DNA from: a candidate division WOR-1 bacterium RIFOXYB2_FULL_36_35 | GTDB taxonomy: Bacteria; Margulisbacteria; WOR-1; XYC2-FULL-46-14; XYC2-FULL-37-10 | DNA: 64,000 nt | NCBI GenBank assembly: GCA_001771505.1 | Contig: MEUA01000040.1 | Coordinates: 1 to 64,000, forward strand | Reading direction: 5' to 3' | Part shown: in pieces, positions 23,883-64,000 of the stretch | Layout: each line of letters starts with the position of its first letter | How positions within the stretch are numbered: position 1 is the stretch's first letter | Made by a program: the position numbers and the translations under genes | Notes under the pieces: model-generated | Seen by the model: only the letters and a program-made list of their open reading frames with translations | What the model was told of the DNA's origin: nothing | Database searches by the model: none

Positions 23883-25865
23883 CTACTCAACATCAAATCC
23901 AAATGATTTTTTAATCGCTACGATTTTATCTCTCAATTCTGCGGCCTTCTCAAAATTAAGCTCAGTTGAAGCTATAATCATCTCATCTGACAACTGTTTA
24001 ATTAAAGAAGGTATCTCCTCTTTCGGCACAAATGCCTTTATTTGATTAACCTCTTCAAGCTTAGCTTCCCTTATTTGGTCAGAAATATCCGCAATTTCTT
24101 TTACGATTGTCTTTGGTTCTATCCCATATTTTTTGTTGTATGCCATCTGCAATTTGCGTCGGCGGTTTGTTTCACTTATAGCTTTTATAATAGAATCTGT
24201 CATTTTTTCAGCATAAAGAATAACTTTCCCGTTTGCGTTCCTCGCAGCTCTTCCTATTGTTTGAATAAGAGACCTTTCCGCCCTTAAAAAACCTTCTTTG
24301 TCAGCATCCAAAATTGCAACCAAAGAGACTTCAGGCAGGTCAAGCCCCTCCCTAAGTAAATTAATCCCCACCAAAACATCAAACTTTCCAAGACGGAGAT
24401 CCCTTAAAATTTGTATACGATCTAAAGTTTTAATATCAGAATGTAAATACCTTACTTTCAAATCTTTTTCATTTAAATATTCCGCAAGATCTTCCGCCAT
24501 TCGTTTTGTGAGAGTTGTAATAAGAACTCTCTCTTTTTTAGAAACCCGTTTTCTTACCTCTTTTTCAATGTCTTCCACCTGACCTTTTATGGGACGAATA
24601 ACAACTTCAGGATCAACAAGTCCGGTAGGCCGAATAATTTGTTCCACAATTTTTTTGCTCTTTTTAATCTCCCAATCGGCAGGAGTCGCAGAAACAAATA
24701 TTATTTGATTTAATCTCTCTTCAAACTCATCAAATTTTAAAGGCCTATTATCATAAGCAGAAGGAAGTCTAAATCCATAATTTATAAGAGCGTCTTTACG
24801 TGATTTATCGCCAAAATACATTGCGCGAATCTGAGGGATGGTAACATGAGATTCATCAATAAACATTAAAAAATCATCAGGGAAATAATCTATTAAAGTC
24901 GAAGGGGGTTCCCCCTCTTTTCGCCCTTCCATATGCCTGGAATAATTTTCAATCCCGGAACAATAACCGAGTTCCCTTATCATTTCTATATCATATTTAG
25001 TCCTCTCCTCCAATCTCTGGGCTTCAACAAGTTTTTTGTGTTTTTTAAGGTGTGCTATTCTTAACTTGCACTCTTCCTGAATGGATTTAAGGGCAAAATC
25101 CAGTTTATCTTTAAAAGTCACAAAATGAGTCGCAGGATAAATTCCGGCAAAATCAAGCTTTTTAAGAGGTTTTTTTGTTATCGGGTCTATTTCAAAGATA
25201 CTCTTTATAACATCATATTCATCAATTTCTATTCTTAAAATACGTTTTTCATAAGCCGGTTGTATCTCTATAACATCTCCCCTTGCTCTAAACTTGCCGC
25301 GATTTAGTTCAATATCGTTGCGTTCATATTTTATGGCCACAAGTTTTTTTAACATCGTTTCCCTGTCAAGGGCCTCTCCCACTCTTAAAGAGACCATCGC
25401 TTCCAAATAACTTTCCGGCGCACCAAGCGAATAAATGCAAGAGACAGACGCAACAACAATTACATCTCTGCGAGAAATAAGTGACATCGTCGCAGAATGA
25501 CGCAAACGATCAATCTCCTGATTTATAGAAGAATCCTTTTCTATGTAGGTATCTGTCGATGGAAGATAAGCCTCCGGCTGATAATAATCATAATAAGAGA
25601 CAAAATATTCAACCGCATTTTCAGGAAAATAAGATCTAAATTCCTGGCAAAGCTGGGCTGCCAATGTTTTGTTGTGAGATATAATAAGTGTCGGCTTCTG
25701 AATAGCATGAATAATATTAGCCATGGTAAAAGTTTTACCGGACCCCGTAACACCAAGAAGGGTTTGAAAATCAAATTTCTTCTTAATACCCTCAACAAGA
25801 GTCTTTATTGCTTTGGGCTGGTCCCCGTCTGGTTTATAATCTGAAATTAGCTTAAATTTTGGCAT
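23883..25865 (-). CDS. uvrB: Excinuclease ABC subunit B
   Basis: Damage-verifying helicase-like subunit of nucleotide excision repair. The 660-residue length is standard. Motifs include Walker [13 protein letters not shown], the beta-hairpin segment [20 protein letters not shown], the DEAD-like [50 protein letters not shown], and QTIGRAARN. The C-terminal UVR domain (about 620-655, [22 protein letters not shown]) binds UvrC. The start overlaps the end of coaE by 14 bases. Confidence 0.97.
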
Positions 25866-26430
25866 TAAATTTTGATTTACCCCAACACCTAAATACTCCT
25901 AATATTTCACTTTTAAATTGATTGAAATCCCCTTCATTTATTATAATTTTATCAGCTATTTTTATATAATCTTTTTTCGAAGGCTGAGACTTCATAATCT
26001 GAAGAATCTTCTTTTTTTTAAACCCTCTTTTCAAAAGCCTTTTAACTCTATTTTTTTTCGAAGCCCAAACAACCCATACTTCATCGACTAATTTTTCAAA
26101 CAAACATGGCAACGCGGCATCTATAACTATAAGTCTGTTTTTTTCTTTTTTATGTACACTTTCGACTGCATACTGTATACGTTCTATAATGTTTGGGTGC
26201 AAAAGCAAATTAAGTTTTTTTAATCTCTTCAAATCAGCAAAGACAATATCACTTATTTTTTTTCTGTTTGCTGTTTTAAACTCATCAAGTAATTTTTTTT
26301 CAAACAACGGATCGGCCAATATTTTATGACCGACAAGATCCGCTTCTATTATATAGGCGCCAATTTTTTTAAAGATTTTTGCGGCTTCTGTCTTCCCTGA
26401 TCCGACAGGACCTGTTAACCCAATAATCAT
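25852..26430 (-). CDS. coaE: Dephospho-CoA kinase (stand-alone)
   Basis: Last step of CoA synthesis: phosphorylates dephospho-CoA. The 192-residue protein has P-loop [37 protein letters not shown]-like [22 protein letters not shown], and a basic lid ([11 protein letters not shown]). It is quite divergent: the LID-region sequence and Lys-rich composition differ from the second CoaE domain in the fusion protein at 59547-61583. One of the two may have another substrate. It overlaps uvrB by 14 bases, so the pair is co-transcribed. Confidence 0.85.
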
Positions 26431-54651: not shown

Positions 54652-54704
54652 GAAAAAATAATTTCACCCCGATTATCATAATAGGAGTTCATATTGTTTA
54701 TTTT

Positions 54705-58907: not shown

Positions 58908-59465
58908 CTATTTGATACTAATTTCATTTTTTGCCAAATAATCCGCAAAATGTTCTATTCTCTTTAAAACATTTAAAAGTAAATTCATCGCAGATTCATC
59001 AGAAAAACCACTGGTGATAGAAAATTTCCCCCAAACCTTTGAGAATTCCAATCCGGGAATACCTTCGGTCTCTCCAACAAAGCTAAAAGATAAAACCCCT
59101 TTATGCACAGGCCAAACTGCAGTGTTCTTATACAAAAGGCTAAGATCAGATACAAGCTCTCGACTTACCAGCCTTTCAATATCAAACAACCATTTATCTC
59201 TAATTTCTAAAAAATCATCATTTGATATGATCACAGGTTTAGAATAAAAAACAAGGTATAAAAAACGACCAAACTGCTTTGCATCAAAAGCTGAAATATA
59301 GACAGGAGGCTGTAAGGCATTATCAAGATTCCTATACGCATAAAAAATACCTGATTTATAAGCTACATCATATCGAGTGTTTCCCCCATTGCAAGAGATT
59401 CTCCTCGGAAAAGAGTCTCCAACCTTTAAATATCGAATAAACGGAGTTCCTATTATAACAGACAT
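58908..59465 (-). CDS. Hypothetical protein downstream of the MBL-CoaD-CoaE fusion
   Basis: 185 residues, no recognised family and no signal peptide. It begins with beta strands (SVIIGTPFIRYLKVGDSF) and continues mixed, with FGRFLYLVFYSKPVIISNDDF in the middle and a helical C-terminus. AAGGGG is upstream of the ATG. It follows the fusion gene in the same direction, separated by 81 bases containing a P1 element, and may belong to the same transcript. Confidence 0.6.
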   Translation of the reverse strand: MSVIIGTPFIRYLKVGDSFPRRISCNGGNTRYDVAYKSGIFYAYRNLDNALQPPVYISAFDAKQFGRFLYLVFYSKPVIISNDDFLEIRDKWLFDIERLVSRELVSDLSLLYKNTAVWPVHKGVLSFSFVGETEGIPGLEFSKVWGKFSITSGFSDESAMNLLLNVLKRIEHFADYLAKNEISIK

Positions 59466-59510: not shown

Positions 59511-59550
59511 AACCCCAATTATTCACCCCGATTAGGATATTCGGGGTTAA
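59511..59550. repeat. Composite P1 repeat at a stop codon
   Basis: AACCCCAATTATTCACCCCG, then ATTAGGATATTCGGGGTTAA. The right edge supplies the TAA stop of the MBL-CoaD-CoaE fusion (59547-59549). Confidence 0.8.
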
Positions 59551-61583
59551 CGTACTACTTTTGCTCGTTTCCCATATTCAAAAAACAACAAATCATAAAT
59601 ATTTTCAACATTAAAAGAATGCTCGCCTTCTAAGGTCACAAACAAACGATCATATTCTCCTTTTTGCATAATTTTTCCACGTTCAACCCGTTCACTCCCT
59701 GTTAATTGGCTTGATATCCTGTGTTCAATCTGATCGGCATCAAAACCCCTTTCAGATAATCTCTTTCTTTGAAGACTCAAAGGGAGATTAATAATTATAA
59801 GATTGTTATCCACTAGCTCGGTTAATTCCCTCTCAATGAAAATTGCCCCCTCCACCAAAACAATCCCCGGTCCAATCCCTCTTAACTCTCTGGAAAAAAG
59901 ATACAAAAGAGCTTCTAGCATCATGTCAGTCAACTCTTTTAATAAGTTTCTGTCATCAAAAACAATCTCTCCCAATTTTTTATGATTGATAGTATCATCA
60001 ACATTTAAAACACTTCTTCCAAACCTGTCGACAATTTTCTGTCTGATACCAAAATACAATGGGACATTATCCTTGCTTCCTAAAATTATTCGCGTAAACT
60101 TGTCAAAATTTATAAAATGAATTTTTAAGTCTTTTTTCTGGCCAAAAGAAGACAACTCTTTACAAAAAGTCGACTTTCCGGAAGCGATTCCTCCTGTCAC
60201 ACCTATTAACATCTGCCCCATATTACGTATCCGTAAAGACTCTCTGACTAAAGACGTAGCATAAGTATTAAGGTTTATCCCCAAAGAAATCAACATCTTC
60301 AGGTTGCTTGAACTGACACTTGTCAAAGAAGGATCTGTTTGCGGAACAAGTAAAGTTATCGGCTCACCGCTCAACCTGCTGTTTAAAGCAGCGAGTGTCG
60401 ACTCATAAACAAAATCAGCCTCATCTCTTACCCCTTTAATAAAAGCTGGAATCGTATTCTCATATAAATAGTCGGCTATAACACCGTCATCACTCCTGAC
60501 CTCCACCCTATCTCGAAGATTAACGGGAATACTGTTTTTTATAAGAAAAATTCTTTCGTCAGGAGAAAAAACCGGTTTTTTCCTGGGGTTAGTCCCCGTC
60601 ATAATACATAATTTAGCCTTGGGATAACGCTCTAAATAACGCGTTACAATATCAAGATGTCCATAAGTAAACGGATCAAAAGTCCCGGGATAGACTGCGT
60701 CAGCCTTAAAAAACTCCTTGAGCCCTTTCGCTCCAACTGACTGAACTAAATGCTCCGGCATAAAATCATCAGCGATCCTAAGGGATGAATCCTTTGCTAC
60801 TATCTCCCTTCTTAAATCGTCTTCCAAGACTTCAGGAATATGACATAAGACCATTCTCTTTTGAATATTTGCCGACAATGTGAAAAGTTGGGAAAAATGT
60901 GTATGAGCTGAGCTTAAAGGCCTATATGCCCCAGCCTCATGAAAAATAACGCCACCAGGTTGCGCAAGAAAAGATATCAGCTCTTCATCAAAAGGAGTAT
61001 CGCTCGAAAAGCCGGCAATGATTTTATCTTTTTGGTCATATAAACAAAAAGCCAACGTATCAAAATGCAAAGAATGTTTAGTAGATCGATTAAACACCCT
61101 AATTGAACCAAATCCTGGAATAAAACTCTTTGCCCCCCACTTGACCGGGAAAAAATTAATATAATCACCAAAAACCTTAGGAGATAAAGACCCTTCCATG
61201 CGATCATGGCCAAATGCGCCTTTTAATCTATCCCACAATAAATCGCGTATACTGGGGAGTGTAATCAAATTTAATTTAGATTGCTCGCCAAAATATTTTG
61301 CCCACAATAAAGTATCAAGGCCACCTATATGATCCGCATCAATATGAGTAACAACAAGATAATCCAATCTGGTCAAACGTGATTCGGAGACTAGCCCAGA
61401 ATCATTTGCAAGGGCAGGATAAATATATGAAGGAGCGTCAACCGCCAATGTCTTTCCATTATTACAAACAACAATTAATGTCTCTCTATGATTAGAAGCA
61501 CGATCTAAAGCAAATGTATCGTGATAACCATAAGCTTTAATCTTCCAACTTTTAGTCTCCATATTATTATAAATCGCAGCCAC
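59547..61583 (-). CDS. Triple fusion: metallo-beta-lactamase fold, CoaD and CoaE domains
   Basis: 678 residues. Residues 12-280 form an MBL-fold domain: VVTHIDADHIGGLDTLLW holds a THxDxDHxGG metal site, and FSSDTPFD and IFHEAGAY supply further candidate ligands. Residues 295-450 are phosphopantetheine adenylyltransferase: VYPGTFDPFTYGHLDIV with the TxGH motif, MTGTNPRKKP, FIKGVRDEADFVYE and VSSSNLKMLISLG. Residues 457-678 are dephospho-CoA kinase: GVTGGIASGKSTFCKEL, VLVEGAIFIERELTELVDNNLIIINLP and QRKRLSERG. CoaD-CoaE fusion resembles eukaryotic COASY; the MBL addition is new to me. GTG start with AGGAG nine bases upstream. A separate coaE exists at 25852. Confidence 0.85.
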   Translation of the reverse strand: MAAIYNNMETKSWKIKAYGYHDTFALDRASNHRETLIVVCNNGKTLAVDAPSYIYPALANDSGLVSESRLTRLDYLVVTHIDADHIGGLDTLLWAKYFGEQSKLNLITLPSIRDLLWDRLKGAFGHDRMEGSLSPKVFGDYINFFPVKWGAKSFIPGFGSIRVFNRSTKHSLHFDTLAFCLYDQKDKIIAGFSSDTPFDEELISFLAQPGGVIFHEAGAYRPLSSAHTHFSQLFTLSANIQKRMVLCHIPEVLEDDLRREIVAKDSSLRIADDFMPEHLVQSVGAKGLKEFFKADAVYPGTFDPFTYGHLDIVTRYLERYPKAKLCIMTGTNPRKKPVFSPDERIFLIKNSIPVNLRDRVEVRSDDGVIADYLYENTIPAFIKGVRDEADFVYESTLAALNSRLSGEPITLLVPQTDPSLTSVSSSNLKMLISLGINLNTYATSLVRESLRIRNMGQMLIGVTGGIASGKSTFCKELSSFGQKKDLKIHFINFDKFTRIILGSKDNVPLYFGIRQKIVDRFGRSVLNVDDTINHKKLGEIVFDDRNLLKELTDMMLEALLYLFSRELRGIGPGIVLVEGAIFIERELTELVDNNLIIINLPLSLQRKRLSERGFDADQIEHRISSQLTGSERVERGKIMQKGEYDRLFVTLEGEHSFNVENIYDLLFFEYGKRAKVVR

Positions 61584-61670
61584 TTAAGACAACTCCTATT
61601 TTACTTATTTTCTTATAATCTTTTATCCCCCATTTATCTTGAAAATTTCAACAATCCTTCCACTTGAACC

Positions 61671-61707
61671 ACGATTATTCACCCCGATTATCTTTATCGG
61701 GGTAAAC
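61671..61707. repeat. P1 repeat upstream of the fusion gene
   Basis: ATTATTCACCCCGATTATC and TTTATCGGGGTAAAC, about 90 bases before the GTG start of the fusion gene. Confidence 0.6.
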
Positions 61708-62350: not shown

Positions 62351-64000
62351 ATGAAAGCTAATATCACATCACCTGTTATAAGAGGACTTTTGCCAGATGC
62401 AAGACCTGTTACTATGCCACAAAGAGTCCGTAGATTCTTTGACACCTACAATTTTATAATGCAAATTGCGCTTAGAGAAACTTTTCAAGTGACACCCTCA
62501 GTTTTTAACCACAGAAGTCTTGAGCGGCTTAATGAAAATTTATCAACTCTATTGAGGTTACAAAATTTATCTCCTTCTCAAATATCTTTTCTAAACCTTG
62601 GAAACCTAGATTCTCCTAATATCGAACCAAGTGACATGGGAAGAGCAACAGAATTATACCTATGCCAATACAGAGTTCGCTACTTTGCAAATCTACTGGA
62701 TATTCGCTTCGCATATAACAGAGATGAAAACCTAGTAATGGGAACGTCTAATGAGATACAAAGAGCCGTCGATTTAAAAACACTTAATCTTCAAAAACAG
62801 ATGGTTCAAGAATATCAACCGACAAAACCTTTAAATCTTCTATTGGATATTCAAGAAGGTGTTACTGGTCTTCCTACAATAATGCCTCCCCCACCAAGAA
62901 CTATTAGTCTTGTTCTACACAGGGAATTACCGCAAGAGTTTTTAAGTCCGAAAGTCAGAGTAGAAAGAGTAAAGACACTTGTCGCTCAAGGAGATATGGC
63001 TTCTGCCTCTCTTCTTCTTTTTGGAAGCGGAACATCTCCTCAATTTGCGGATGCAATTATTAATAATGAACATCTACAACCTGTGGTTGCAAAACTTTGC
63101 GAAGCTGGAGATCCTTCGGCAGTTTCAGATTATCTATACTGGACAGCTAGAAAAAAAGGAGCTAAAGAAGTCTTAGATATTATTCGCGGCCAAGTATTCG
63201 TTGGAACAACTCACGCTGGACATGTAGGAGGTTTTCAAGATCAACGGAAGGCAGCGATCATCCTTTTTAAATTATCCCTCAGGGAAAAGGGGTCTAACCT
63301 TTTAAATGCCCTTTTTAGAGTAGCTAAAGATGATGTCGAAAATAAGAAAATGATAGGCATACTTGGGGAACTTCATTCAGCACGACCAGATATTTTTGAA
63401 AATCCAAACGAATTCCAAAAAAATAAAAAATCTGTTTTCAAACCAAAGGCAAATGCTGAAATTCAAACACTAAGAATGGCAAGGCCGAGAATAGAAATTA
63501 TTGCAGAGACAACGGCTCCAGATATTGTTTCACAAAGAGAAGGATCTAAGGAAACTGCTATTGTCTTATATGATGGAGGATCACAAAGAGAATGGGATTT
63601 TGAATTTGGAGTGATGAATCCAGCCGAAACGCTTATAGCTTCGGCACAAAACTTATCGGCCCGAGGCGATTATGAATCAGCATGTGATTTAATCTTTGGA
63701 GTCTCGAGAACCATGACAGAAGTTGCGGCTGTTTTAAGATTGAGTCATCTTACCAGTTTTCAGATAGCAAGAATATTGGAACAGTTAGGAACCCAAAATC
63801 TAAGAAGGTTTCTTGCAGAAGCTGTTAGATATGGTAGAAAAGATGATCTCTTTTTTGATCTTTTCTTTGACGGGATACTCTTTGGCTTATCTAGAATTGA
63901 AACAGAAGATTTAGCAGATTTATTGGAACAAATGATTCATCACCAATTAGAAGATCAATCATCCGTATATCCCCAACGTGAAGCAGCATATTGTCTTTTA
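62351..64000 (+). CDS. Giant protein, first 550 residues, continuing past the window
   Basis: Open without stop from the ATG at 62351 to the last base. No family recognised, no signal peptide. The start is MKANITSPVIRGLLPDARPV. Two regions look like copies: about residues 200-300 (VAQGDMASASLLLFGSGTS, then PQFADAIINNEHL) and about 430-545 (SARGDYESACDLIFGVSRT, then EVAAVLRLSHL). Each is followed by an SL/helix-rich part ending in QRKAAIILFKLSL or QREAAYCLL. This gives a repeat of about 230 residues, suggestive of helical armadillo- or HEAT-type units. The ATG lacks a good ribosome site (weak AGG about 13 bases upstream). Confidence 0.75.
   Translation, partial: MKANITSPVIRGLLPDARPVTMPQRVRRFFDTYNFIMQIALRETFQVTPSVFNHRSLERLNENLSTLLRLQNLSPSQISFLNLGNLDSPNIEPSDMGRATELYLCQYRVRYFANLLDIRFAYNRDENLVMGTSNEIQRAVDLKTLNLQKQMVQEYQPTKPLNLLLDIQEGVTGLPTIMPPPPRTISLVLHRELPQEFLSPKVRVERVKTLVAQGDMASASLLLFGSGTSPQFADAIINNEHLQPVVAKLCEAGDPSAVSDYLYWTARKKGAKEVLDIIRGQVFVGTTHAGHVGGFQDQRKAAIILFKLSLREKGSNLLNALFRVAKDDVENKKMIGILGELHSARPDIFENPNEFQKNKKSVFKPKANAEIQTLRMARPRIEIIAETTAPDIVSQREGSKETAIVLYDGGSQREWDFEFGVMNPAETLIASAQNLSARGDYESACDLIFGVSRTMTEVAAVLRLSHLTSFQIARILEQLGTQNLRRFLAEAVRYGRKDDLFFDLFFDGILFGLSRIETEDLADLLEQMIHHQLEDQSSVYPQREAAYCLL

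Follow-up and report, generated by a model that had tools for sequence, protein, structure and literature searches.

The stretch analysed here (the window) comprises 64,000 nucleotides from a candidate division WOR-1 bacterium and carries, on its minus strand at positions 59547–61583, a single uninterrupted open reading frame of 678 residues. The frame opens with a GTG codon, which has an in-frame stop immediately 5′ of it and a Shine–Dalgarno-like AGGAG nine bases before it (61593–61597, minus strand). Three domains, all scoring above their Pfam cutoffs, are encoded on this one chain: an N-terminal metallo-β-lactamase (MBL)-fold domain (residues 1–288; 60720–61583, minus strand), followed by a CoaD (PPAT) domain (residues 295–451; 60231–60701, minus strand) and a CoaE (DPCK) domain (residues 458–638; 59670–60212, minus strand). 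The corresponding matches are Lactamase_B_2 at residues 68–248 (29.9 bits, cutoff 27), CTP_transf_like at 297–428 (48.4 bits, cutoff 21), and CoaE at 458–638 (67 bits, cutoff 27). A preliminary description of the locus had proposed the same three domains in one polypeptide at the same coordinates, leaving the strand unstated.

Among the NCBIfam models, the DPCK model TIGR00152 is exceeded (75 bits, cutoff 65.55), and the PPAT model TIGR01510 is narrowly missed (93.6 bits, cutoff 103.3). The CoaD part retains the SSS motif and the nucleotide-binding TxGH (residues 306–309; 60657–60668, minus strand), which forms the end of FDPFTYGH (residues 302–309) and is invariant in the family of CoaD–CoaE fusions described below. 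Where ordinary CoaD has RGLR the protein has KGVR, as does most of that family. The CoaE P-loop, GVTGGIASGKST (residues 461–472), includes the Walker A sequence GGIASGKS (residues 464–471; 60171–60194, minus strand). MBL and full-length protein were modelled separately, because MBL-only rows slid onto CoaD in the joint alignment. In the full-length model the CoaD fold is confident, with matching PDB and Foldseek hits, and Foldseek likewise recovers CoaE; the MBL part of that model is unreliable, and therefore no claim is made on the arrangement of the domains. Open reading frame, Pfam, and Foldseek agree on PPAT plus DPCK in one chain, and judged by its sequence the protein very probably has both activities.

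An assembly or gene-call artefact that merged separate genes is highly improbable. The MBL–CoaD junction was found in one genome, that of the window, among the 74 genomes of the phylum compared, which is what such an artefact could leave behind. Against it stand the single open frame, the Shine–Dalgarno-like sequence before the GTG, and uniform GC content (0.378 in the gene, 0.365 in the window). At the CoaD–CoaE junction a chimera or frameshift is unlikely, because that junction is common to many independent homologues. A frameshift or assembly error, which the preliminary description had named as a danger to its reading, is thus not what the sequence points to. The three-domain architecture is real and unusual and belongs to a real, apparently undescribed module; its anatomy is well supported, and its mechanism is treated below as a working hypothesis.

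The fusion is an additional CoA enzyme, since the same genome holds both a stand-alone canonical CoaE of 192 residues, located in the same window (25852–26430, minus strand), and a stand-alone CoaD on another contig (C51). One CoaB and one ACP are also encoded in the genome. Two CoaE are likewise present in each of five bacterial genomes that encode related fusions (G045, G053, G095, G130, and G175), and by sequence a CoaD–CoaE fusion of the same kind occurs in 2 of the 74 genomes of the phylum, the window's own and G045. The genes next to the fusion (58908–59465, minus strand, and 62351–64000, plus strand) have no Pfam or NCBIfam match. Sites resembling TTCACCCCGATTA number 29 in the window at up to two mismatches, against 1.6 expected, and are often paired as short palindromes; examples lie at 54663–54675 and, flanking the fusion gene, at 59522–59534 and 61678–61690.

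CoaD–CoaE fusions of about 375 residues proved widespread outside eukaryotes. Their hosts include large phages, a Pseudomonas silesiensis megaplasmid, DPANN archaea, Planctomycetota, one Kangiellaceae MAG, and one Anaeromyxobacter MAG; several phages carry coaD and coaE adjacent and unfused. A viral scan with the full-length window protein as query gave no match. One phage-labelled tblastn match, MT838720, was dropped, as it is a polA–coaE segment of bacterial appearance. The order of the two enzymes is reversed in two phage proteins (L043, 9341–10498; L044, 9428–10522). A further locus from the window's phylum (L172 in G053, 3–2012) has one frame of at least 670 residues in the order HD–CoaE–CoaD; its CoaD-like part reads GTFDLLNNETL at the expected TxGH and may be degenerate. 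Comparison of domain order across related genomes, which the preliminary description had recommended, shows the CoaD–CoaE order to be recurrent and the N-terminal MBL to be seen in one genome, with the closest relatives carrying a C-terminal HD domain instead.

Most CoaD–CoaE fusions are adjoined by, or fused to, an HD-family phosphohydrolase. Of nine distinct phage contigs, six have it directly next to CoaD–CoaE, as do six of the seven archaeal loci and Kangiellaceae; in four proteins (L003, L091, L188, and L189) it is fused to the C-terminus. In some phage and archaeal members (L027, L028, L083, and L095) no HD gene was found near CoaD–CoaE. The metal residues are conserved in an alignment of the HD partners, which presumably correspond to COG4339. 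A search centred on the HD protein, covering 279 genomes from a single DPANN phylum, gave the same association: on loci that included roughly 1.5 kb of flanking sequence, and among related genomes that are non-independent, 11 of 15 close homologues (E < 1e-40) were joined to CoaD, compared to 0 of 14 distant ones (Fisher p 4e-5). The 11 consist of five CoaD–HD fusions, two CoaD–CoaE–HD fusions, and four neighbours. By these sequence criteria, the CoaD–CoaE family is strongly linked to an HD phosphohydrolase through adjacency or fusion. The CoaD–HD fusions seen in DPANN archaea (L196, L197, L199, L201, and L205) are about 360–400 residues long; PF01121 CoaE is absent from four of the five genomes that encode them, and the fifth has only a sub-cutoff fragment. 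The preliminary description's CoA synthase with an added hydrolase is borne out in its domains, and three things go beyond it: the enzyme is an extra one, CoaD–CoaE fusions are common outside eukaryotes, and the usual partner is HD rather than MBL.

In a CoaD–CoaE tree, the window protein groups with L003 and L091 (support 100/100). L188 and L189, found later and outside that tree, are 45–46% identical to the window protein. All four relatives have HD and lack MBL. An HD protein of the CoaD–CoaE-linked family was not found in the window's genome, by a search that does find HD in G045 and G053, and no stand-alone homologue of the MBL was found in the 73 other genomes of the phylum. The simplest reading of these sequence comparisons is that MBL replaced HD, a reading drawn from a single case, the one genome in which the MBL fusion is known.

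The MBL domain is nearest by sequence to the phage nuclease Apyc1 (PDB 7t28, E 5e-11; 7u2r, E 1e-9). Its model (moderate confidence, mean pLDDT 71) was built from an alignment that contained Apyc1-like rows; with that limit, Foldseek ranks 7u2s (E 3e-15, TM 0.72), 7u2r, and 7t28 best, followed by YhfI and tRNase Z. Sequence and model together indicate a divergent class II phosphodiesterase. The domain is classed as Apyc1-like, not as Apyc1, because its metal motif, THIDADH (residues 79–85; 61329–61349, minus strand), has the form HxDxDH, with Asp in place of the second His, where Apyc1 uses HxHxDH (PMC9117128). Of the motifs that had been called intact in the preliminary description, CoaD TxGH and the CoaE P-loop merit the word; THIDADH is where it was placed, and "intact" is too strong for it.

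The variant motif could weaken metal binding, and, together with several diverged loop regions and the moderate confidence of the model, it raises the alternative that the MBL is catalytically impaired and acts as a scaffold or dimerisation domain. This alternative is improbable: the later motif positions (H170, D195, H215, H227, and H248) are present by alignment, and among the matches of the motif region are defence MBL families such as Avs1a. We consider it fairly likely that the domain is an active phosphodiesterase. Some MBL-fold proteins are thioesterases, and the preliminary description had suggested action on a CoA thioester or precursor. Action on a precursor may hold; the thioesterase role is very doubtful, since the closest relatives of the domain are phosphodiesterases such as Apyc1, and tRNase Z, and since an HD protein in the equivalent place is hardly a thioesterase.

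The kinship with Apyc1 allows another alternative, in which the MBL would be a cyclic-nucleotide phosphodiesterase and the fusion would link a nucleotide signal with CoA synthesis or counter a signalling defence, the tie to CoA enzymes being either regulatory or a legacy of a phage gene cluster. Apyc1, the top match in both sequence and fold, breaks down many cyclic mononucleotides (PMC9117128), and about 8 kb upstream of its HD and CoaD–CoaE one phage (L057) encodes a genuine Apyc1 homologue (PF23023, 132.6 bits, cutoff 50). However, a single phage co-occurrence may be chance, the HD partner is tied equally to CoaD in archaea, and in the window protein PF23023 reaches 19.6 bits, far under the same cutoff. 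Furthermore, the substitution H64A/H66A/H69A abolishes Apyc1 activity (PMC9117128), and the counterpart of the second of these histidines is Asp in the window MBL. Taken together, these points make a cyclic-nucleotide role unlikely. Genes resembling IGPS and Thg1 lie on the same phage segment (L057, 532–12484), as does one for a protein that weakly matches DFP (CoaB-like) and class II aldolase.

The best explanation overall, to which we give slightly less than even confidence, is that the protein combines, by fusion, an extra bifunctional CoA synthase with a metal-dependent phosphodiesterase, MBL being in the role of HD. That the MBL shares the role of HD is, taken by itself, a little better than an even proposition; it would have taken over the job by non-orthologous replacement, hydrolysing a phosphodiester or phosphoester that feeds or protects the two CoA steps. 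Hydrolases of Ppt arose in two folds without common origin, represented by AcpH (HD) and PptH (metallophosphoesterase) (PMC8557913), and release of 4′-phosphopantetheine is therefore attractive as the common job. As a leading guess, and a tentative one, the MBL would release 4′-phosphopantetheine from a phosphodiester, and CoaD and then CoaE on the same chain would convert it to CoA, in a salvage route running beside the housekeeping pathway. It is conceivable, though doubtful, that this describes a CoA salvage module common to bacteria, phages, and DPANN archaea, with a metal-dependent phosphodiesterase, usually HD and here MBL, supplying phosphopantetheine to the fused CoaD–CoaE.

The gene content of the archaeal hosts bears on the source of the substrate. 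In five of seven DPANN genomes tested that carry the module, neither ACP nor CoaB was detected, the MAGs being incomplete. Unless genes are missing from these MAGs, recycling of the organism's own ACP is excluded as the role there, and the idea of ACP recycling is weakened by this comparison. Mycobacterial PptH, moreover, showed no part in salvaging CoA in M. tuberculosis (PMC8557913). The missing CoaB suggests an external source of CoA precursors for these archaea, and a salvage module would therefore fit, whatever its substrate. The presence of the module where ACP was not found calls for a role other than ACP recycling, and repair or clearance would be one: HD and MBL would either rid CoA of aberrant phosphates, cyclic or at the 2′ position, or break down a phosphate by-product. 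In bacterial CCA-adding enzymes a fused HD domain acts likewise on tRNA ends, and phosphodiesterases occur in both folds. Against such a role, CoaD–HD fusions exist in some archaea without PF01121 CoaE; we regard repair as a rather remote alternative to salvage.

If the salvage reading is true, that hydrolase role would have its first MBL-fold member in the fusion gene. A change from HD to MBL, with the CoaD–CoaE core kept, would narrow the reaction to the common repertoire of the two folds, and the fusion offers one polypeptide on which to assay all three activities. The module also bears on the CoA supply of phages and of DPANN archaea without detectable CoaB.

Searches of the open-licence literature yielded no description of an HD or MBL partnership with CoaD–CoaE, no report linking the HD protein with CoaD/PPAT, and nothing for COG4339; the module of HD or MBL with CoaD–CoaE is apparently undescribed. 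Known before were COASY, the archaeal PPAT–DPCK fusion, and coaD and coaE of phages. COASY likewise joins PPAT and then DPCK in one chain, as the preliminary description had pointed out, and the comparison is confirmed by the retained motifs and by mouse CoA synthase (2f6r), which the CoaE part of the fusion matches. In contrast to COASY, the PPAT of the fusion is of the bacterial CoaD type, its best matches being bacterial CoaD, an MBL is added, and the genome also keeps separate enzymes. In archaea, PPAT is fused to the arCOG04076 DPCK, which is GTP-dependent in T. kodakarensis (PMC6650551); PPAT is again joined to a DPCK, whereas the DPCK family is unrelated, that of the fusion being the P-loop CoaE. 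Snow viruses carry coaD and coaE as auxiliary genes, placing the last two CoA genes in viruses, and the parts of that report consulted mention neither a hydrolase partner nor a fusion (PMC11097641). Apyc1 resembles the MBL domain as its top match in sequence and fold (PDB 7t28, 7u2r, and 7u2s; PMC9117128) and differs from it in that the MBL domain has the HxDxDH motif, scores below the PF23023 cutoff, and is fused to CoaD–CoaE. Finally, the likeness to AcpH and PptH (PMC8557913) is confined to the type of reaction as proposed here: the HD partner has no detectable homology to E. coli AcpH, compared as a single sequence by hhalign (probability 0.1%), and the MBL would add a third fold to the two in use.
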